This document shows, in pieces, positions 45,972 to 62,955 of a stretch of DNA of 64,000 bases; positions within the stretch are counted from its first letter, which is position 1; each line of letters opens with the position of its first letter. The stretch spans positions 1-64,000 of the forward strand of contig JAATFL010000012.1 of NCBI GenBank assembly GCA_015655215.1, written 5' to 3'. The DNA is from Coriobacteriia bacterium. GTDB lineage: Bacteria; Actinomycetota; Coriobacteriia; Coriobacteriales; RUG033. The position numbers and the translations under genes are program-made. A model generated the notes under the pieces. That model had not been told where the DNA came from. It saw only the letters and a list, made by a program, of their open reading frames with translations, and did not search any database.

Positions 45972-46224
45972 TTTGCTATATTTAATGGGGAAAACAGGGG
46001 AAGGACATGATCCGGGTGTATGTGGGTGCCGGCGGTCTTGTGCGAAACTTTCCACTTTCCAAAATAACCTGAATAGCAACTAACACACCTTCGGATTGGA
46101 GGAGTGATCCCTGCTCACTTTATATAGCCGCTATCTGAGGGGCGGTTGCCTCTCGATGCCGGCAGTGCTAATCTCGCAGGGAGTGGTATGTATGTTCTGT
46201 AAATTACATTCTTGTGGAGTAGCT

Positions 46225-48717
46225 ATGAAAACCCGCTTCCTTCCACTGCTTGCGTTTCTCTGGGCGATGCTGTTCATCTCAGCTTTTGCGGCCACGATGG
46301 CGTTCGCGGTGGAAGGGGACACCTCTCCGGTCGCGACTGATGCGAATGGCGACGTCTATGACTCGGCCACCACCACCCCGCCTACTGCCCCTGTGCACCT
46401 GAACGCTCGCACCACTGCGAGCTTCTCCGACTTCTTTCCTGACGCGGGCGACGGGACTCAGCCGATAGTCAGCCTCATGGCCCAGACGACGAGTTCGACG
46501 TTCTACGACGTCCTCTCGTTCGCCGAGCAGTATGAGGGATGGCCCTATATATGGGGTGGACGTGATCCCAGTCAGGGCGGCTTCGACTGCGCGGGCTTGG
46601 TCATGTACACCTATAACCAGGTATGTGGCACCGACCTCGACGTACAAAACACCAATGCATCCAGACTCTACAACTGGTATTGCACGCCGATAGATGCGGC
46701 CGACGCGCAACCGGGTGACCTGGTCTTTTTCCAGGGCACCTACGGAGACGACCCAGACTATATCTCGCACGTGGGTATCTACTGCGGAGGTGGCATCATG
46801 TTCGATGCCGGTGACCCGATTGGATACGACTCGATTTACGATATCGAGAACCAGGTTACCGGTACTACGGCAACGCCGGTCTTCGGGCGCCTGGTCAGCA
46901 TGAGCGATACGACCAAGGCCGCCTTCCATGACCTTGCACCTGGCGTCTATACCATCTCCTCTGCCTTGGATTCCGACTTGGTGCTCGATATCACCGGTGC
47001 CTCTACAGATGACGGTGCCGCCCTGCAACTCTACACTGCAAACGGGACCGACGCTCAAAAATTTGATGTCGAGTATCTCGGCAACTCCTTCTACAGCATC
47101 ACCTCCGTGAACTCCGGCAAAGCGCTCGATGTTGCTGGAGCTGGTAAGGAGGATGGCACGCGCGTTTGGCAATATGCCGCCAACGGCACTGCCGCTCAGC
47201 AATGGCTGATCAAGTCCACCGGCGATGGATACTACCAACTCGTCTCGCGTTGCGACTCCCTGCTCTTGGACGTACGGAACGCAAGCATCTCCCCAGGGAC
47301 AATCCTGCAGATGCACGCTTATAACGGTAACGATGCCCAGAAGTTCAAGTTCAACCAGGCGACTGTCACGCAGAGCATCGCCGATGGGGTGTACAGCATC
47401 TCCTCTGCACTGGACGACGACCTCGTCCTTGATATCGCGAGTGCCTCGTCAGCTGACGGTGCAACCGTGCAGCTCTACCAGTCAAACGGGACCGACGCTC
47501 AGAAGTTTTCCACCACCTACCTGGGGGGCGGGTATTACGCAATCGCATCGCTTCGCTCGGGCAAGTGCTTGGACGTCGTCGGCGGAAGCGATGCGGAAGG
47601 CACGCGCGTGCAACAGTACACTGCCAACGGTTCGGCGGCCCAGCAATGGCTGGTCCGCGATGAGGGCGATGGATACTTCAGCTTCGTCTCGGCTTGTAGC
47701 CAACTCAATTTGGACGTCACGGCGGGGGTGGCACAAAGTGGGACCGTTCTGCAGACCTACCCCTACAATGGCAGTGCCGCGCAAAAGTTCAAGCTCACCA
47801 GCGTCGTGGCTTCCACTCCGATCGAAGACGGCACCTACACCATCGTCTCGGGTATCGACTCCGGGCTTGCCTTGGATAACTCCGGAACGAGTTCGGATAC
47901 GGCCATGGGCATCAACCTCTGGTCCACAGCTGGCGATGGAGTGCAGGGTTTCACCCTTACGCAGGACTCCGATGGTTACTACACCGTCATCGACAGCGAT
48001 ACAGGCAACGCACTCGACGTGGCAGATGCGGGCACGGCCGATGGCACGGCCGTTCGGGAGTGGACTCCCAACGGCACTGCAGCCCAGCAGTGGTATATCG
48101 AGGATGCGGGTGATGGGTACTATCGTCTCATCTCACGCTGCAACTGGCTTGCTTTGGACGTCATAGGGGGAGTGGATGACAATGGAGCCGGTCTGCAGGT
48201 CTTCCACCTGAATGGCACCAGCGCTCAGGAGTTCAAGCTCGTCGACTCTTCTACGCCTGCACCGAGCACCCAGGATGTCGCCAATGGCACGTACACCATC
48301 GCCTCCGTACTGGACCCGAATCTGGTATTGGACATATCGAGCGCTTCGACCTCTGACGGGGTCAGGCTGCAACTCTACACCGCCAATAGGACCGATGCCC
48401 AAAGATACACCGTCGCCTACCTTGCCGATGGACGTTACAGTATCTCGCCGAGCTGCTCAGGGAAGATGCTCGATGCTGCCGGAGCTGGCTACAAGAAGGG
48501 TACGATCGTCTGGCAATACACACCTAATGCCACGACGGCGCAACAGTGGTACCTTGAGCCAACGAGCACTGACGGGGAGTACACCATCGTATCGGCTTGC
48601 AACAATTTGTGTCTCGATGTGCCGGCTGCCGATGCTTACATCGGAACTGGTTTGCAACTCTATCTACCCAACGGAACCGCCGCTCAACGGTTCACGCTCA
48701 GCCTCGCCACGTCATGA
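46225..48717 (+). CDS. Secreted NlpC/P60 endopeptidase-like protein with RICIN repeats
   Basis: Signal peptide MKTRFLPLLAFLWAMLFISAFAATMAFA; YIWGGRDPSQGGFDCAGLVMY (catalytic Cys) and ISHVGIYCGGG (His); about 12 QxW-type repeats. Confidence 0.88.
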   Translation: MKTRFLPLLAFLWAMLFISAFAATMAFAVEGDTSPVATDANGDVYDSATTTPPTAPVHLNARTTASFSDFFPDAGDGTQPIVSLMAQTTSSTFYDVLSFAEQYEGWPYIWGGRDPSQGGFDCAGLVMYTYNQVCGTDLDVQNTNASRLYNWYCTPIDAADAQPGDLVFFQGTYGDDPDYISHVGIYCGGGIMFDAGDPIGYDSIYDIENQVTGTTATPVFGRLVSMSDTTKAAFHDLAPGVYTISSALDSDLVLDITGASTDDGAALQLYTANGTDAQKFDVEYLGNSFYSITSVNSGKALDVAGAGKEDGTRVWQYAANGTAAQQWLIKSTGDGYYQLVSRCDSLLLDVRNASISPGTILQMHAYNGNDAQKFKFNQATVTQSIADGVYSISSALDDDLVLDIASASSADGATVQLYQSNGTDAQKFSTTYLGGGYYAIASLRSGKCLDVVGGSDAEGTRVQQYTANGSAAQQWLVRDEGDGYFSFVSACSQLNLDVTAGVAQSGTVLQTYPYNGSAAQKFKLTSVVASTPIEDGTYTIVSGIDSGLALDNSGTSSDTAMGINLWSTAGDGVQGFTLTQDSDGYYTVIDSDTGNALDVADAGTADGTAVREWTPNGTAAQQWYIEDAGDGYYRLISRCNWLALDVIGGVDDNGAGLQVFHLNGTSAQEFKLVDSSTPAPSTQDVANGTYTIASVLDPNLVLDISSASTSDGVRLQLYTANRTDAQRYTVAYLADGRYSISPSCSGKMLDAAGAGYKKGTIVWQYTPNATTAQQWYLEPTSTDGEYTIVSACNNLCLDVPAADAYIGTGLQLYLPNGTAAQRFTLSLATS

Positions 48718-49085
48718 GCAAAGGCTTCCCTCTCCATGCAGTGTCCTTGCCGTGAGGGATAGTGATTCCAGATGCATCCTTGCCCATCGCGGAAGGTGTT
48801 GATGAGCATTGAGCACTCGATTTACATCAATTCTTCAAATCATCTGGCGGGCCGTGCCGTAGACTATCCTAAACAGGCTGTTTACCAGGTCATACTATCC
48901 ATGGCTGTGAGTGGTGCCTGTCCTGTTGGTATGGTACTGTTCGTGTTCAGATATTTTCTTTGAAGATGAAAGATGCAGTATGGAGAGGATTGGATGTTTG
49001 ACAAGCTTGGCGGTACTCTTGCGCATCCCATGTTCCGACCTGTTTCTTCGCTCCGATTTGTTATCGATGAGGAAGGATACTTGAC

Positions 49086-52000
49086 ATGAGAACACACCCT
49101 GCAATCACACCGGTCATAGCCTGTGCCCTTTCGTTCCTCATAGCCTTCTCATCGTTGTCGGCGACGCTCTCCATGGCCTATGGCGACACGTCGGTTACGA
49201 ATACGCTGACTAAGAATACGACGACGAGCGTGGTGTCGACAACCGACGCAGCATCGACCAGTGCTTCAACAGATGGGAATGAGGCAGCAAACACCACCGT
49301 ATCGGATTCGGCAGACGAATCAGATGTTGCCATCGGTACTACCGCCACGGCCTCGACCGATACTGCAGTCAGCACATCGACAGCGGCGGTCTCGTTCGAG
49401 AGCCTTGCTGCTGCATCATCGGCATCGGTGTCCGATGGGACCTACACCATCTCATCGGCCCTCGATTCGGATAAGGTCCTCGATGTCGCCGGCAGGTCAA
49501 CAGCGGATTGTGCCAACGTGCAAGTCTACTCATCGAACAGCACCCGGGCACAACATTATGAGATCACCTCACTTTCCGACGGCTACTATCGGATTATCGT
49601 ACAGGGCTCTGGCAAGGCCCTTGACGTATGTGGCTCAGGAACCTCTGCGGGGACGAATGTCGACCAGTACACGGTGAACGACACGGCTGCGCAGGAGTGG
49701 TACTTCGAGGATGCAGGTGATGGCTATTACTATATCGTTTCCCGTTGCAACGGCCTCTATCTGGATGTAGCAGGTGCAGGGACCTCAAACGGCACCAACG
49801 TCGACGTCTACACGTCGAACCAGACCGCCGCGCAGAAGTTCTTACTCACCGATGTGACCTCAGCTTCCACATCGGTTTCGGCTGGTACCTATAGCATATC
49901 ATCGGCACTTGACTCGAACCTGGTGCTCGACGTCACCGGAGCATCGACGGCAAATGGTGCCAACATCCAAATCTACACATCGAATGACAGCGAGGCCCAG
50001 ACGTTCTCCCTTGCGGCAAGTGACGACGATGGTTACTACACGATCACGAACGAGAACTCGGGGCAACTACTTGATGTCGATGGTGCCGATCGCGCCGATG
50101 CGACGAATGTCGACCAGTATGCATCCAACGGGACGTGGGCGCAGGAGTGGTACTTCGAGGATGCAGGTGATGGCTATTACTATATCGTTTCCCGTTGCAA
50201 CGGCCTCTATCTGGATGTAGCAGGTGCAGGGACCTCAAACGGCACCAACGTCGACGTCTACACGGCGAACCAGACCGCCGCGCAGAAGTTCACGATCAAC
50301 CCTGCATCCGAAACGCTTGCCGATGGTACCTATACCATCGCATCCTCCATCGATACGAGTGCAGTGCTCGATGTGGCGAATGGTTCGGTACTGGATTCCG
50401 CGAATGTCCAGCTCTATACAAGCAATGGGTCCAACGCACAGAAGTACCGTACCGTCTATGACAGTTCGACGGGGTCCTATACGATATCGTCGGTCTCTTC
50501 GGCAAAGGTGCTTAATGTCGCCGGCTCGGGGATGACCAGCGGAACGAACGTCGACCAGTACACCTCCAATGGGGGCGATGCGCAGAAGTGGTATCTCGAG
50601 CCAACGGGTACCGCCGGTGAGTACTACGTGATATCGAAGTGCAACGGGCTCTATCTCGATGCCGTTTCCGGTCAAACGTCCGATGGGACCAATGTCGAGG
50701 TCTACACGGCAAATCAGAGCGATGCACAGAAATGGGCGTTCACCCAAACCGATCCTGCCCAGGTGCTCGATGACGGCATCTACTCCATTTACTGCAGTAC
50801 CGACACGGATATGTCGCTCGATGTCGCTGGAAGCTCGACGAGTGATTTGGCAAATATCCAGCTGTCCACCGCCAGTACGACCGACGAGGCACAGAAATTC
50901 ACCTTCGCCTACCAGGGAAACGGGTATTACACCATCGAAAACGTGAATTCGGGGAAGTTGCTCGATGTCGATGGTGCGGCGACGGCCAACGGAACGAATG
51001 TCGACCAATACATCGCCAATGGAAGCGACGCACAGCTGTGGCAGCTCGTCGACGAGGGTGACGGTACCTACATCGCCATCTCGAAATGCAATGGTCTGGC
51101 ACTCGATCTTGCTAGTGGCGGTACGGTTGATGGAACCAATGTGGACGTGTATGCGACAAACGGTTCGTCTGCGCAGACGTTCCTCATCAGACCCATGGCA
51201 CCAGGTAGCTATACGATCGTCTCCGCAGTCGATACGAGTGGCGATAAGGTCCTCGATATAGCCGGCGGGTCATCCGCTGATGGCGCGAACGTCCAGCTCT
51301 ATGATGCCAACGACTCGGATGCGCAGATGTTCACCCTCTCCTACGATGCGGATGGGTATGCGACGTTCGCCTCTCTGTGCTCATCGGGTAACGCGGTCCT
51401 CGACGTAGATGGCGGGTCATCCGCTGACGGCGCGAACGTTGACCAATACACCTCGAACAATACCGATGCCCAGAAGTGGAAGATCGAGTACGATGATGAT
51501 GGATACTACTATATCGTCTCGGCATGTGGTGACAAGCTCTGCCTCGACGTGGCCGGTGGGTCCTCGAGCAATGGTACCAACATCGATGTCTATACGGAGA
51601 ACGGAAGCGACGCACAGAGGTTCGAATTCGAGGACACGACCTACTACAGTACGGGAATCACGCTTGCCAAGGCCGTAGATGCGGAATTGGGAGCAAACAC
51701 CGACAGCAGTGGGGACTACACGTCCGATGCATCGTACATCCTCTCGTGCATCGATCCCGCCGTCATCCTTGCAACCAGCTACAAGCGTTACGAGTTTTTG
51801 AACATCGCATCCGGTTATTCCGGGATGACCGCCGGTGAGATCAACGCCTTCATCTCAAGCACCACCAAAGGAGCGAATGGTTCCCTTGCAGGTATGGGTG
51901 AGTACTTCGTCGAGGCCTCGAAGCTATATGGTGTCAACGAGGTGTACCTGGTCGCCCATGCCATCATCGAGACCGGGTGGGGTAGTTCGACGTTGGCTTC

Positions 52001-52352
52001 GGGCATCTACTCATCAAGCACCGGGCTCACCTATTACAACTTCTTCGGTATCGGTGCCTTCAACGACAGTGCAGTCACTTCGGGCACAGCGTATGCGGTG
52101 AAATACGGATGGTCATCCCCCGAGCTCGCGATACTAGGTGGGGCACAATGGATCGCAAACAATTATATCTATGGTACCTACAGCCAAAACACACTTTACA
52201 AGATGAAGTTCAACATCGTCTCGGGAACGGCAGTGCACCAATATGCCACGGGCATCACCTGGGCGGCAAACATCTCGGCGGTCATGGCCGAGTGCTATGA
52301 GTACGCTTCTTCGACCACTGCGACATACTGCATCCCCGAGTACTCTTCATAG
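49086..52352 (+). CDS. Secreted RICIN-repeat protein with C-terminal glucosaminidase (GH73-like) domain
   Basis: Signal peptide; about 15 QxW-type repeats; C-terminal YFVEASKLYGVNEVYLVAHAIIETGWGSSTLA...YYNFFGIGAFN. Confidence 0.87.
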   Translation: MRTHPAITPVIACALSFLIAFSSLSATLSMAYGDTSVTNTLTKNTTTSVVSTTDAASTSASTDGNEAANTTVSDSADESDVAIGTTATASTDTAVSTSTAAVSFESLAAASSASVSDGTYTISSALDSDKVLDVAGRSTADCANVQVYSSNSTRAQHYEITSLSDGYYRIIVQGSGKALDVCGSGTSAGTNVDQYTVNDTAAQEWYFEDAGDGYYYIVSRCNGLYLDVAGAGTSNGTNVDVYTSNQTAAQKFLLTDVTSASTSVSAGTYSISSALDSNLVLDVTGASTANGANIQIYTSNDSEAQTFSLAASDDDGYYTITNENSGQLLDVDGADRADATNVDQYASNGTWAQEWYFEDAGDGYYYIVSRCNGLYLDVAGAGTSNGTNVDVYTANQTAAQKFTINPASETLADGTYTIASSIDTSAVLDVANGSVLDSANVQLYTSNGSNAQKYRTVYDSSTGSYTISSVSSAKVLNVAGSGMTSGTNVDQYTSNGGDAQKWYLEPTGTAGEYYVISKCNGLYLDAVSGQTSDGTNVEVYTANQSDAQKWAFTQTDPAQVLDDGIYSIYCSTDTDMSLDVAGSSTSDLANIQLSTASTTDEAQKFTFAYQGNGYYTIENVNSGKLLDVDGAATANGTNVDQYIANGSDAQLWQLVDEGDGTYIAISKCNGLALDLASGGTVDGTNVDVYATNGSSAQTFLIRPMAPGSYTIVSAVDTSGDKVLDIAGGSSADGANVQLYDANDSDAQMFTLSYDADGYATFASLCSSGNAVLDVDGGSSADGANVDQYTSNNTDAQKWKIEYDDDGYYYIVSACGDKLCLDVAGGSSSNGTNIDVYTENGSDAQRFEFEDTTYYSTGITLAKAVDAELGANTDSSGDYTSDASYILSCIDPAVILATSYKRYEFLNIASGYSGMTAGEINAFISSTTKGANGSLAGMGEYFVEASKLYGVNEVYLVAHAIIETGWGSSTLASGIYSSSTGLTYYNFFGIGAFNDSAVTSGTAYAVKYGWSSPELAILGGAQWIANNYIYGTYSQNTLYKMKFNIVSGTAVHQYATGITWAANISAVMAECYEYASSTTATYCIPEYSS
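49689..49841 (+). repeat. 153-bp intragenic direct repeat, copy 1
   Basis: Identical to 50139-50291 except position 49815 (T vs G); offset 450 bp. Confidence 0.92.
50139..50291 (+). repeat. 153-bp intragenic direct repeat, copy 2
   Basis: See 49689-49841. Confidence 0.92.
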
Positions 52353-55740: not shown

Positions 55741-55894
55741 ACGAATACGATGACAGCGAATCTTGATTTCCTATTCCAGCATTTGGTTGGGATTCCTGCG
55801 GTAGTTAAGAGTCCCGTAAGCCTTCTGGGCAGGTCTATGATGTTATCCTATAGTTTATTATTCAGATGGGAATCTGACAAACATTGGAGTGCTC

Positions 55895-58306
55895 ATGCAG
55901 GTTAGAGTCAATGGAGCGTGCCGAGGCGACGGTTTGGGTTATGTCCGAATCATGCTCCATGATGTGGCTGCGGATAGTAAGTTAAAGGTTTCTGTTCAAT
56001 TGGACACCGGAGCTCCCGTTCCCTGCGAGCTATTCAGACTTGCCACTAGCGCAGGTTCTTCCACGGGATCCTATACCGTCGTGTTCCCGCTTCTCCATGT
56101 AAGTGCAGTGTTTCTCGATGTTAAGGAGATAGGGGCTGGCGGGAAGGTCTCCTCATCTGCGATCAAGAGAATATCGATGGCACTTCTGAAGTGGCAATCA
56201 AGATTCAACTATCGAGTGCATCCCAGTTTCTGTAAATCGATGAGGGACATCGAGAAGCGGGATGCTTACACTCAACCTAATCCCAAGCTCTTGGTCTTTG
56301 TCGAGAACAATGATAATTATCTCATCAAGGCCTCGAGTACGTTTCCTATCAAGACTTCCGGTGTCACTATCTCATTGATTGACAGCACGGGGGTCGGTTT
56401 GAAGGGTTTTGACTATCTTATTACAGGAACCCGCACGGTGACGGATGGGTGTTTTCCTTTTAAGGAAGTGAATTTCTCTTTCAGGGTTCCTAAGGACGGA
56501 AATGATTATTACCTTGTCATTACCGACAAGGATGACGAAGGGGCTCAGGGTATTTTCGTACTTGACCAGCAAGCTTCCGGTGTCTATGCGTCGCAAGCTA
56601 AAGATGTCTCATTTTCCGCTGATACCGATTCTGACTATGGTGCATGGCTCAGAGTCCACCAAGTCACCCTGAAGTCGCTTGATACTCAGGAAAAGATGGT
56701 TTTCTCGTACACTCCCTTGATTTCGCTCGTCGTTCCCCTGTTCAACACGCCTGTCACATGCTTGCGTGAACTGGTGGCTTCGGTTTTAAAGCAAAGCTAT
56801 CCTCATTGGGAACTCATATTGGTGAATGCGACTCCAAGTAATACCGATTTGATTGCCTGTATCAAGGCTTTTGCTGACAGACGTATCAAGGTTGTCCCCT
56901 TGGAGAAGAACTTGGGGATTGCCGGTAATACGGTTGAAGGTTGTAAGGTGGCATCGGGGGATTTCATCGGGTTTGTCGATCATGATGATACGGTTGAGCC
57001 GGATATGCTGTTCCAGTATGTCACCGCTATCAATGATGAACCCGCTGTAGATCTCTTGTATTGTGACGAGGATCATCTCGACGAGGATGGTCAGTACTTC
57101 AACCCCCATTTCAAACCTGATTTCAATATCGATCTCCTGCGTTCGTACAATTACATCACACATCTCCTTATGCTACGCAGGACGTTTCTTGAGGACATCG
57201 GATATCCTCGTTCCGAGTATGACGGGGCTCAGGATTATGATCTGGTGTTACGTGCATCGGAGCATACATCCCATATCGTCCATATCCCCCGTGTTCTCTA
57301 CCATTGGCGGGCAAGCGAGGGTTCTACAAGTACAAACAGTGCAAGCAAACCGTATGCCAATGAAACGGGTCGTCGTGCGCTGCAGGCGCACCTCGATCGG
57401 CTCCATCTGAAGGCGACAGCGGCTGATACTGAGCGTAGCTTCATCTATCGGGTCACCTACACGCTCGAAGAGGATTCGCTTATCTCGATCGTCATCCCCA
57501 ACAAGGATGAGTCTGAGATGCTCAAGGTCTGCATCGCATCGATTGAGGACAACTCCACCTATGATAACTATGAGATTGTGGTGGTTGAGAACAACAGTAC
57601 GGAGGATGAGACCTTCGCATGTTACGAGATGCTCCAGGCTCAGTATCAAAACGTGCATGTGGTGATGTGGGACAAGGAGTTCAACTTTTCAAAGATCATG
57701 AATTTCGGTGTCGACCAGGCAAAAGGTGAATATGTGTTGTTGCTCAACAACGATACGGAAGTCATCACCCCTAGTTTCCTGGAAGAGATGCTCGGGTATT
57801 GTCAACGAGAGGATGTTGGTATCGTCGGCGCCAAACTACTGTATCCTGATGGAAGCGTACAGCATGCCGGTGTAGGAGCAGGCATATGTGCAGGCGCCGG
57901 GCATCTCGCGAAGTTCCTCGATCGGGAGAATCCTGGATACTATCTTCGAGCTGCAGTCCCCCAGGACCTCAGCGCGGTAACGGCAGCTTGCATGATGACC
58001 AAGAAGGCGGTCTACGAGGAGGTTGGAGGCTTTTCGGAGGACTTCCCCGTTGCCTTCAACGATGTCGATTACTGTCTAAAGGTTCGGGACACGGGGAGAC
58101 TTGTCGTGATGGACCCCTATGCCGTGCTCTATCATTATGAATCGGTCTCGCGTGGTTTGGACGATGACAAGGTGTCTATCGATAAGCAAATCCGTTTTCA
58201 TAAAGAAGTCGCTCTACTTAACTATCGTTGGGCTAAGTACTTTGTCGTCGGAGACCCCTACCTCAGCCCCAACTTCAACCGAGGGACGCTTAACTACACG
58301 TTGTGA
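55895..58306 (+). CDS. Large glycosyltransferase with two GT2 domains and N-terminal extension
   Basis: LISLVVPLFNTPVTCLRELVASVLKQSYPHWELILVNATPSN...GFVDHDDTVEPD and LISIVIPNKDESEMLKVCIASIEDNSTYDNYEIVVVENNST...LLNNDTEVI. Confidence 0.88.
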   Translation: MQVRVNGACRGDGLGYVRIMLHDVAADSKLKVSVQLDTGAPVPCELFRLATSAGSSTGSYTVVFPLLHVSAVFLDVKEIGAGGKVSSSAIKRISMALLKWQSRFNYRVHPSFCKSMRDIEKRDAYTQPNPKLLVFVENNDNYLIKASSTFPIKTSGVTISLIDSTGVGLKGFDYLITGTRTVTDGCFPFKEVNFSFRVPKDGNDYYLVITDKDDEGAQGIFVLDQQASGVYASQAKDVSFSADTDSDYGAWLRVHQVTLKSLDTQEKMVFSYTPLISLVVPLFNTPVTCLRELVASVLKQSYPHWELILVNATPSNTDLIACIKAFADRRIKVVPLEKNLGIAGNTVEGCKVASGDFIGFVDHDDTVEPDMLFQYVTAINDEPAVDLLYCDEDHLDEDGQYFNPHFKPDFNIDLLRSYNYITHLLMLRRTFLEDIGYPRSEYDGAQDYDLVLRASEHTSHIVHIPRVLYHWRASEGSTSTNSASKPYANETGRRALQAHLDRLHLKATAADTERSFIYRVTYTLEEDSLISIVIPNKDESEMLKVCIASIEDNSTYDNYEIVVVENNSTEDETFACYEMLQAQYQNVHVVMWDKEFNFSKIMNFGVDQAKGEYVLLLNNDTEVITPSFLEEMLGYCQREDVGIVGAKLLYPDGSVQHAGVGAGICAGAGHLAKFLDRENPGYYLRAAVPQDLSAVTAACMMTKKAVYEEVGGFSEDFPVAFNDVDYCLKVRDTGRLVVMDPYAVLYHYESVSRGLDDDKVSIDKQIRFHKEVALLNYRWAKYFVVGDPYLSPNFNRGTLNYTL

Positions 58307-58328
58307 TCCAGGGTGGTAACCACCTGTT

Positions 58329-58391
58329 CTACGGTTTCAGAATATCCTTAATCGTACGAAGGGGCTTCGTGATCCGAAAGCTGGTCGAATT
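58329..58391 (-). pseudogene. 3'-end fragment (about 21 codons) of the RgpF-like gene
   Basis: Matches 60829-60891 (offset 2500); encodes the terminal [16 protein letters not shown] stretch only. Confidence 0.85.
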
Positions 58392-58494
58392 GGACATGTG
58401 GACCGGTTTGTAATGATTGCCCATTTGCAGGGTGATTGAGATACCGTTTCAGTGGGTGCGGGAGTGCGGGCATTCCACTGCAATAGATTATGCC

Positions 58495-58633
58495 GTCATC
58501 TCGCTCCACGATCTAGTTGAACACGCATGGTATGATATCATCGTTCAGTCCTTTCTTGTCCCTGTGGTTTCGACGCCATCAGGATATAAGAGAGGACTGA
58601 CACTATCCATCAACTTACCAGGTTAGCAGAACC
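58495..58633 (+). repeat. Left arm of imperfect inverted repeat flanking DUF2142-type gene
   Basis: Reverse complement of 60310-60450 aligns end to end, roughly 85% by eye, with a few 1-bp gaps. Confidence 0.85.
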
Positions 58634-58697
58634 AATAATAATATCAAAGCAAACTTCACGGGGAAGTGGATAGGCTTTAGCAGGGGAGATACTGCGA

Positions 58698-60290
58698 ATG
58701 TCGCACATCAAGTATGCCAACTGGAAAAACGCGAAATGGGCGACCGTGTTCTTCCTCGCTACGGCTGGTGTCCTCTTCTGCGTTGTTGCCCAGTCAACTC
58801 CTGAAATTGCGAGTCGGAAGGTCCTTCTCGGCTTTCCCGTTGCACTCTGCGCCATAGGATGCATCCTCCTGGTGCGTATCATTTCAGAAGAAGAAAGCGG
58901 GAAGTTCTCCCATACCAAGACGGTGCAGCACCTTTTCTTGGTCATCTACGTATGCGGTGGGTTGCTTGCCATGGCGGCAATGCCGCTTGGCTCGGGATAT
59001 GACGAGGGAGAGCACTTCATGAGGGCCTATCAGGTTCTTCAAGGTGCCGAGACCATCAGAAGCCCCGAGGGTACGACGAAGGGAACGGATAGCCTGGGCG
59101 CGATGCTTGCCGACAATTCACGCCCAACCGTCTTTGATGTCTACCAGCCAGACATCACATTTCCCGTGTTAATTGACAGCATGGACGCCGACCACGTCGA
59201 TTCTTCGGCGCAGCAGTATTACGGATTCTTCAACACTGTTCTCTATACGCCTCTGACCTATGCCCCCTACTATCCGGGAATGATAGCGGTTGGACTTTCT
59301 TCATCAAATTCCCTTGCTATCGCCTATGGCGGAAGGTTCTCCGCATGGTTGATCTTTGGCATCATCCTCTTCTTTGCCATCGGGAGATTCCCGTATGGGA
59401 AAGAGGTTGCGGCGCTGGTGTGTCTTCTTCCCTCGACCATTATGTTCTGCGTTTGCTGGTCAGGCGATGGTCTGGTATTTGTGGCCTCCCTGTTCCTTCT
59501 GGCCGAGGTTCTGAGGGCACGCGCCTCACTAAAACGGCTTTCGTGGCTCAATATCGTCGGCTGCTGGGTCCTCGTTTTATTGGTTGGTCTTTGCAAGATG
59601 GCCTACATGCCCATATGTCTTCTCATCCTGCTCATACCCAAACGATGTTATAAGACAAGGGCGTCGTATGCCATCAACGTGCTTGGTTGTGCAGCCGTGG
59701 GCCTGACGCTGTCGCTGCTATGGATGTACTCTGCGACCGCACTTGAATCTGGCGTGTCGTATGTCAACAACGCAAACAGCGGTGAGCAGCTTCGCTTTGT
59801 CCTAGCAAACGTGCCTTTTTTCGTGAGCGCATGTGTGCTGACGGTCTTGGACTCAACTCTGCCTTGGCTCGCCGGCCTTGTTGGCTCTTCCGTCGTCCAG
59901 CATTCAGCATTGCTCGGTCTGTCGTCGGCCATCGTTGGTATCGTTTTCATCGTGGTAGCGACGCTCGATGCCAAGCACAGAAGGGGACAGATTGACATCT
60001 GCGCCAAAGTGTCGCTAACCATTATCGTTTTCCTCGTGTGCGGACTCATTTTCGCCGGCGAATACATAACGTTCACTTCTGTGGGGGCGTCTCGCGTCGA
60101 AGGGGTTCAGGCGCGGTACTTCATCCCCCTCCTCATGCCTGCGATCATGGCTTTGCGACCTTCGCGACGTGTGGACTCCGCAGAGTCTCCGGAGCCCGCA
60201 GAGCCTGCTCTTGATTTCAGGGTGTTGTGGGAGCTTGAACTCTGTGCTTTGGTGGTCGAGTTCTCGGTAGTGATGGTAAGCGTTTGGTGA
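58698..60290 (+). CDS. DUF2142-type polytopic membrane protein
   Basis: MPLGSGYDEGEHFMRAYQVLQGAETI motif and about 10 TM segments. Confidence 0.78.
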   Translation: MSHIKYANWKNAKWATVFFLATAGVLFCVVAQSTPEIASRKVLLGFPVALCAIGCILLVRIISEEESGKFSHTKTVQHLFLVIYVCGGLLAMAAMPLGSGYDEGEHFMRAYQVLQGAETIRSPEGTTKGTDSLGAMLADNSRPTVFDVYQPDITFPVLIDSMDADHVDSSAQQYYGFFNTVLYTPLTYAPYYPGMIAVGLSSSNSLAIAYGGRFSAWLIFGIILFFAIGRFPYGKEVAALVCLLPSTIMFCVCWSGDGLVFVASLFLLAEVLRARASLKRLSWLNIVGCWVLVLLVGLCKMAYMPICLLILLIPKRCYKTRASYAINVLGCAAVGLTLSLLWMYSATALESGVSYVNNANSGEQLRFVLANVPFFVSACVLTVLDSTLPWLAGLVGSSVVQHSALLGLSSAIVGIVFIVVATLDAKHRRGQIDICAKVSLTIIVFLVCGLIFAGEYITFTSVGASRVEGVQARYFIPLLMPAIMALRPSRRVDSAESPEPAEPALDFRVLWELELCALVVEFSVVMVSVW

Positions 60291-60309
60291 GATAGACCAG
60301 CAAACAAGA

Positions 60310-60450
60310 GGTTCTCTTAACCTAGTAAATCGATGGACAATGTCAGTTCTCTCCTGTGTCCTGATAGTGTCGAAACCGCAGGGACAAGAAAAGACTACTC
60401 AATGGATACCATACCATGCGTGTTCAACCAGATCGTGGAGCAGAGATGAC
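60310..60450 (-). repeat. Right arm of imperfect inverted repeat flanking DUF2142-type gene
   Basis: See 58495-58633. Confidence 0.85.
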
Positions 60451-60500
60451 GTACGATGTCTTTCGCACTTTCAGAATTGAGCGCATCCAGAGATAAAGGC

Positions 60501-60815
60501 TGGTATCGTCGGCGCCAAACTACTGTATCCTGATGGAAGCGTACAGCATGTCGGTGTAGGAGCAGGCATATGTGCAGGCGCCGGGCATCTCGCGAAGTTC
60601 CTCGATTGGGAGAATCCTGGATACTATCTTCGAGCTGCAGTCCCCCAGGACCTCAGCGCGGTAACGGCAGCTTGCATGATGACCAAGAAGGCGGTCTATG
60701 AGGAGAAGTTGCTCTACTTAACTATCGTTGGGCTAAGTACTTTGTCGTCGGAGACCCCTACCTCAGCCCCAACTTCAACCGAGGGACGCTTAACTACACG
60801 TTGTGATCCAGGGTG
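60501..60815 (+). pseudogene. Truncated, internally deleted copy of the GT2 gene 3' end
   Basis: 60501-60705 matches 57817-58021 (offset 2684); the following part matches at offset 2500, implying a 184-bp internal deletion (frameshift). Confidence 0.92.
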
Positions 60816-60828
60816 GTAACCACCGGTT

Positions 60829-62664
60829 CTACGGTTTCAGAATATCCTTAATCGTACGAAGGGGCTTCGTGATCCGAAAGCTGGTCGAATTCCTCATATC
60901 GTCCAGCTCATGGTTCTTGTCGATCAATTGATGCTCCAGGTTGGAGATCCGGTCTTCCAGTTCCTCAGTGCTCGGTCCTGCGGGGACTGGTATCTGCTGA
61001 TGAACCCATGACCATGAGCTCAATGCTTGGCGTGTCGTGGATTCGGCAACACACCAGCCGGATAGGTATCCCTCGCTCTGTACGAAGAGAGGGAGGGCAA
61101 AGTCATCTTCGGGGCAAACGGCATCTGCATGTTCGTAGAGTGAATATCCAAGGTAGCTCCTCAGGAGCTTGCCTCGTACCCAATACATATGTGCGAGCGC
61201 CGCTACGGGTGGTTTGCTGATATCGGTTTTAACCGTGATGCCAATCTCTCGAATCCAAGCCTCCGTCTTCTCGAAGGTGGTCCTCCATCGCCTTTCCAAC
61301 TCATCACTTAGCCCTGGGACAACGGGAGGTTGTGGGGACAGGAACCCGAGACGTGGCATGTCCGCAAAGAGATTCACCACCCCCTTCACCGCCTCTGCGG
61401 TGCCTGCGATGGTATCAAGTGTTTGGGTGTACCCCGAGTACTCGTTAATCGAGGGGATGTCGTCGTGGTCGATGTCGTGGAGAACGCATACCAATTCGTT
61501 GTCTTGGATAGTCTGCAAAAGCGCCTCGTGGTACCTATTAGTGCCTTCTGTCAAGGTATGTTCACCATCGATAACGTAGAATGTGACCGTCTCTTTGGTG
61601 TTGAGATTTGTGAGAAGTTCCTCACGGACACCTTCACTGCACATAATGGCCACTGTGCCCAACCGTGCAAGGATATTGAGACGTTGCGGCCAATTGAAAG
61701 CACTGTCACACTCCTTCACCTCGACGAAGAAGGCCAATCGGTGTGAAGAGGATGGCTCTTGTGCAGGATGGGAGGGAATCATGTACGAGAGGGTCAGCCC
61801 ATCTGCGATATCCCTTTGATTACATGTCCGCAGGAGGTTCTCAATGATGAGGTCCGAGTCGTAGCAGGTGTTGGTATCGATGTATCGAAGCGATTCATAT
61901 TCATCATTGCGCGCGATAGGATAGATTACACGCATCTCCTCATGGCAGGAGATGAACTTACGCTTTATCAGCGGGCTTCCTTTGAATCTCAGACAGTCAT
62001 ATGGCATTATCTGGAATGGGTCGGCAGTCAGTTCCTCAAGGTCGTTCAAATCGAGGAAACTATCCCATCGGAAGCCTTCATCGCTGAGGTATTGGGTTAG
62101 ACGGGTTTCAAACAGCCCAACGGCCTCATCATGGGTGACGATAGGGGGGAGGGTGTCCCAAAAAGAGCGAAATGCAGGGGAGCTGAGAACCTTGTCACGA
62201 AAAACAATGAAGAACGTCTGTATGTGTGGGGGAAAGATTCCAGAAGGACTGTATCCTATCGGGTCAAAACTAAATCCAAAGTGCTTGCTGATTCCCCAAA
62301 AATCCAGCTCTGGCCGCTGTTCCATGGAGGCAAAGACCGAATCGAATCCGTAAAAGGGGCCGTATGTCGTGAGATTGGTTAAGACAAGCTCGCGGCACAA
62401 GGTGATAGACGTCCATCCCAGTGCCTCGATGCCGGTCTTGTAGGCCCAAGCATCATAGCCGATGTTCTCCCGTACGATGACACGTTGGGTATATGATTCG
62501 AGAATCTCGACGGTTCGGGGAGACGCGGGCCCGTTGCACACGATGACGAGTGTATCGAGGTTACGGGAGAGTTCATCGAGGTAATACTGTGCATAACGGT
62601 CTATGATACCCTGCTCGTCGAAGAAGACGCATACTCCAAGCCGTTTGGCGCCGGGTTCTTCCAT
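60829..62664 (-). CDS. Rhamnan synthesis F (RgpF)-like glycosyltransferase
   Basis: [37 protein letters not shown]...[21 protein letters not shown]...[13 protein letters not shown]. Confidence 0.88.
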
Positions 62665-62955
62665 CGCGTCCGCCTCATGATTCCCCCATTTGGATGGGTG
62701 TCAGTATCGCACTCTTGTCTTGATGGATCTATTCTAGCGCATGGGCAAGGGTTGCGTTATATGATCCTTTTGCGGGGTGATCGAGATACCGTTCCCAGCG
62801 TACAGGTGGACGTGTCACAGGATACTGTCACGGAGTTGGATGGGAACCTTGCGCACAATTCCTGGTATGATTGCATACCGGTCAGAATGGATTACAGATG
62901 TTGCTTACAGGCTTGTATTTCTACACAGGGAATATGGGCTATTGGAGGTAATCAC

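Follow-up and report, generated by a model that had tools for sequence, protein, structure and literature searches.

Inverted repeats beside a DUF2142 gene in a coriobacterial polysaccharide locus very likely derive from decayed IS1595-type insertion sequences

Tn7560/ISApl4 is described as a pseudo-compound transposon of the IS1595 family, in which cargo lies between two copies of the insertion sequence (IS) (PMC12561309). DUF2142 genes are reported to be variably present in the rgp loci of Streptococcus thermophilus (PMC9746298), and those in lactococcal cwps loci are proposed to encode polymerases or transferases (PMC12599335).

The locus considered here, from a Coriobacteriia bacterium (GTDB lineage Bacteria; Actinomycetota; Coriobacteriia; Coriobacteriales; RUG033), has a DUF2142 gene between two inverted arms. 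It lies in the window, which is the whole analysed stretch of 64,000 nucleotides (contig JAATFL010000012.1, positions 1 to 64,000, forward strand) of an assembly of 38 contigs that is 79% complete (GCA_015655215.1). The features of the locus are as follows.

55889-58306, plus strand: intact gene for a two-domain family 2 glycosyltransferase (Pfam PF00535), whose 3' end opens the direct repeat
57817-58391, plus strand: direct repeat copy 1, comprising the glycosyltransferase 3' end and an rgpF-like 3' tail (the rgpF part on the minus strand)
58392-58491, no strand: spacer between direct repeat copy 1 and the left arm, part of which resembles the rfbA upstream region
58492-58633, minus strand: left arm, putative 5' end of a decayed IS1595-type element, with its tip at 58633; the transposase would run leftwards
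58610-58633, minus strand: left terminal inverted repeat GGTTCTGCTAACCTGGTAAGTTGA, a match to the tip pattern
58615-58642, plus strand: promoter-like hexamers TTACCA-16-AATAAT, upstream of the DUF2142 gene, partly in the IS tip and partly in its flank, not above shuffle expectation
58698-60290, plus strand: intact DUF2142 membrane protein gene (PF09913, 530 aa), single copy in the genome
60310-60453, plus strand: right arm, putative 5' end of a second decayed IS1595-type element, with its tip at 60310 and a possible transposase start ATG at 60446-60448
60310-60333, plus strand: right terminal inverted repeat, decayed (GGTTCTCTTAACCTAGTAAATCGA, three mismatches)
60454-60500, no strand: short spacer past the presumed transposase start codon
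60501-60891, plus strand: direct repeat copy 2, without 183 bp that match about 58021-58203, continuing into the intact rgpF-like gene
60829-62664, minus strand: intact rgpF-like gene (PF05045)

The DUF2142 protein matches PF09913 with an E-value of 1.5e-33 and 116.6 bits, against a gathering cut-off of 30.1. Among its neighbors, RgpF and rfbA were recognized by profile, and rmlD-, rmlB-, and rmlC-like genes and an ABC transporter pair were recognized by reading the translations by eye; this gene content is that of a cluster for rhamnose wall polysaccharide. Elsewhere in the order, distant relatives of DUF2142 adjoin glycosyltransferases and flippase-like genes. The protein is probably a membrane polymerase or transferase in the assembly of a surface polysaccharide. 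Elsewhere in the window, positions 46156-52352 encode two large adjacent proteins that by eye appear to be built of lectin-like repeats, with an NlpC/P60-like part at the N-terminus of one and a glucosaminidase-like part at the C-terminus of the other. About 33 bases of the left spacer (58413-58448) are repeated upstream of rfbA (62761-62793), a resemblance that hints at a further rearrangement.

The original prediction of imperfect inverted repeats of about 140 bp is borne out: when 58494-58633 is aligned locally to the reverse complement of 60310-60451, 84% of 142 columns are identical, with two gaps of one base each, and the score is 165, compared to 27 for the best of 500 mononucleotide shuffles. 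The DUF2142 frame does lie between the arms, with gaps of 64 bp to the left arm and 19 bp to the right arm, and the statement that the segment 58495-60450 carries no transposase or recombinase also holds, no such open reading frame being evident there. An intact gene surrounded by inverted arms naturally invites the reading, also proposed in the original prediction, that the DUF2142 gene changes orientation through recombination of one arm with the other, but the absence of an evident recombinase frame in the segment is one of several points against it. The left and right arms are 83% identical to each other, compared to 89% and 81%, respectively, for their identities to a copy in cas9 described below, so that each arm is as close to copies elsewhere as to its partner, and there is no sign of gene conversion. 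The differences are mainly transitions, with 12 transitions and no transversions between the left arm and the cas9 copy and 20 transitions and three transversions for the right arm. These star-like relationships suggest independent decay without homogenisation, and a divergence of about 17% between unhomogenised arms argues against frequent or ongoing inversion. Moreover, the gene has a single promoter-like site upstream, most of which falls within the tip of the left arm, and this site does not rise above shuffle level. Inversion is, collectively, a reading that we find hardly credible.

The arm sequence, for which the original prediction suggested a search elsewhere in the genome and in relatives, occurs at four places in the genome. 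Besides the left and right arms, a third copy, right at the terminus of contig C38, sits within a type II cas9 gene, in its 5' part, and breaks the reading frame after about 110 residues (TIGR01865, 120 bits; L005:5453-5920, at the C38 end); a search of the genome showed that the remainder of cas9 is missing from the assembly. A partial fourth copy is located near the end of contig C32, next to an unrelated gene. The same search in relatives found no copy in any of 398 further genomes of the order, nor was the arm found in plasmids, phages, or viral contigs. A 20-base arm pattern gave two exact matches in 257 billion bases, both in distant bacteria, one a planctomycete and the other a Salinivibrio, which is about the number expected by chance. 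These copies bear directly on a further suggestion of the original prediction, namely that the right arm is what remains of the promoter region of a second, inverted DUF2142 copy that has since been lost. The gene does have one arm upstream and an inverted one downstream, but the same sequence sits inside cas9 and beside an unrelated gene, its tip is an IS end, and the DUF2142 gene is single-copy, so that this origin can practically be dismissed.

A multicopy insertion sequence has the tip of the arm, GGTTCTGYTAACCYRGYAAGTTGA, as its terminal inverted repeat. All three arm tips read GGTTCT(G/C)(T/C)TAACC, and a 24-base tip pattern finds five genome sites within 3 mismatches (C21, C25, C38, and the two arms), compared to zero for the reversed pattern used as a control. 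The sequence GGTTCTGTTAACCCAGYRAGTTGA is present both at the arm-type end (C38) and at a transposase-type end (C21 and C25). Reading of the contig ends showed that C21 and C25 end in one common sequence of about 139 bp beginning GGTTCTGTTAACCCAGCAAGTTGA, which on the other strand runs into ...RKELAIKHIASGSYDTKWREYKDTPYPFGDYYGWAA-stop, the C-terminus of a transposase; this shared end resembles the 3' terminus of an IS present in several copies that the assembler collapsed into one. Several contig ends (among L035, L041, L044, L064, L070, L089, L097, L098, and L101) share other identical sequences of 138-141 bp, which probably represent additional multicopy repeats or insertion sequences collapsed in assembly. 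Each copy of the present IS has a single end in the assembly, and the far ends of all copies are lost, hence the 8-bp, A/T-rich target-site duplication typical of the IS1595 family is not visible. Because no full-length copy is assembled (a search of the genome with NF033547 gave none), the joining of the arm-type end to the transposase-type end rests on the shared terminal repeat and on the behavior of the assembly. The outer flanks of most tip sites are A/T-rich, which would fit the description of an IS1595-family element (PMC12561309).

The assignment to the IS1595 family comes from the tip-sharing element, whose transposase C-terminus (36 aa) is 41-55% identical to the C-termini of relatives in nine other genomes of the order; it has no match in Pfam and is absent from the plasmids searched. 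The one relative checked at full length, a multicopy element in genome G324, has an open frame of 348 aa that matches the IS1595 family transposase profile NF033547 (E=1.1e-34) and contains an IS1/IS1595 zinc domain. This element carries GGCTGTGTTAGACCACTGTTGACA at both sides, on the same plan as GGTTCTGTTAACCCAGYRAGTTGA here, and its end GGCTGTGTTAGACC is of the same kind as the present tip. In this relative, about 95 bases of leader separate the tip from the start codon; in the arms, which themselves lack a transposase, the distance from the tip to an ATG that follows a G-rich stretch (GTGGAGCAGAGATGACG) is about 135 bases. As far as sequence comparison goes, each arm is thus best read as the 5' end of an IS1595-type element, truncated near where the transposase begins.

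The left, right, and C32 copies end inwards at nearly the same point (CGTCATCTC/ATGACG), and the two complete copies measure 142-144 bp. A common inner boundary and a constant length could also be explained by two 142-bp non-autonomous elements (MITEs) that were moved by an IS1595 transposase and inserted independently beside the DUF2142 gene. A MITE requires terminal repeats at both ends, but the inner arm end aligns with the IS end no better than shuffles do (32% of shuffles are as good), and the boundary falls at a plausible ribosome site and start codon. With the inner terminal inverted repeat lacking, this candidate was rejected as improbable.

The homology of the arms, their extra copies, and the terminal repeat in common with a multicopy element are observed directly, as are the orientation, the decay, and the bracketing repeat discussed below. 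We consider it very likely that the arms represent the terminal inverted repeat and untranslated leader of two decayed, oppositely oriented IS1595-type copies that flank the DUF2142 gene with their tips inward. A transposon tip is the outer edge of the element, and DNA beyond the tips stays outside it. Since both tips point towards the DUF2142 gene, the gene would lie outside both elements, and the pair of arms could not excise it as a transposon. Accordingly, the earlier idea of a mobilised cassette stands as regards the mobile origin of the arms, which are IS ends, but not as regards movement of the gene by these repeats.

In a narrower form of this explanation, the DUF2142 gene was the passenger of a composite transposon, of which the two inverted IS1595 copies are remnants and which moved as a unit. 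A single gene lies between two inverted copies of one IS end, and IS1595-family elements are known to bracket cargo, though the copies in Tn7560 are directly oriented (PMC12561309). However, intact outer ends and an outer target duplication are missing, no further terminal repeat besides the two arms being found within 3 mismatches in the whole window, so that a composite transposon, if ever present, is dead. The right arm is also more decayed than the left, suggesting different ages. We therefore regard this form as possible but rather unlikely.

The left arm folds as a long hairpin (CAGTCCTTTCTTGT...ACAAGAGAGGACTG) with a z-score of -4.5 on the strand antisense to the transposase. The cas9 copy gives z-scores of -2.8 and -3.7 on its two strands, and the right copy gives no hairpin. 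Most changes in the stem retain pairing via G-U on the antisense strand, not above shuffles, and covariation among the three sequences is likewise not above shuffles. A structured RNA was rejected as the identity of the arms on this shuffle-level covariation and on the lack of any Rfam family for the arm sequence; the hairpin of the IS leader is perhaps a trace of a regulatory RNA.

A second repeat, absent from the original prediction, encloses the arms and the DUF2142 gene. The 575 bp at 57817-58391 recur directly at 60501-60891 with about 98.5% identity (6 mismatches in 393 compared positions) and with a 183-bp internal deletion in the right copy. The 3' ends of two genes make up the repeat, that of the upstream glycosyltransferase and that of the rgpF-like gene convergent with it; the left copy belongs to the intact glycosyltransferase gene and the right copy to the intact rgpF-like gene. 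The longest identical stretch between the copies is shorter than 141 bases, which is the contig-end overlap in this assembly, so that the assembler should be able to tell the copies apart. Direct repeats of this kind would permit RecA-dependent loss or amplification of the block, not inversion. That the DUF2142 block is a module whose presence and absence switch naturally through these repeats is a slim prospect; if it were, RecA-mediated loss of about 2.5 kb would leave the glycosyltransferase and rgpF intact, and loss or amplification would yield a mixed population with different surface polysaccharides.

The direct repeats are far less diverged than the IS ends (1.5% versus 11-19%), implying that the decayed IS-DUF2142-IS block predates the duplication of the glycosyltransferase/rgpF junction, unless the repeats have been homogenised. 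In a plausible history, two IS copies would have landed on either side of the DUF2142 gene, either separately in time or origin or as parts of a former composite transposon, and both would then have lost the transposase and far end. The decayed block may subsequently have been placed between two copies of the junction by homologous recombination, for example through single-crossover integration of a circle carrying the junction or unequal exchange with a donor allele. Today, the block would be static as to its arms, and only RecA acting across the direct repeats could delete or amplify it.

The overall arrangement appears to be ordinary genome wear and tear. A striking inverted repeat could thus be explained without a new system, its IS ends being presumably inert here, while the direct repeats, which had been overlooked, lead to the prediction that a polysaccharide gene can be lost. 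In addition, a probable IS1595-type element that is not assembled is identified, which has interrupted cas9 in the same genome.

The remnants resemble the IS1595 family in the GG(C/T)T(C/G)TGTTA... type of terminal repeat found in the relatives' elements, in the related transposase C-terminus, in their A/T-rich flanks, and in insertion both within genes and in intergenic DNA, but differ in that the copies here are one-ended and transposase-less, none being assembled at full length. The locus shares with Tn7560 the placement of cargo between two IS1595-family copies; those of Tn7560 are intact, directly oriented, and mobile (PMC12561309), whereas those here are inverted, truncated, and diverged, and the whole block here is bracketed by a chromosomal direct repeat. 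Compared by gene content to the S. thermophilus rgp and lactococcal cwps loci, it likewise has a polytopic DUF2142 membrane protein clustered with rgpF and rhamnose genes; unlike here, a DUF2142 gene between IS remnants is not described in the available excerpts of those reports (PMC9746298, PMC12599335).
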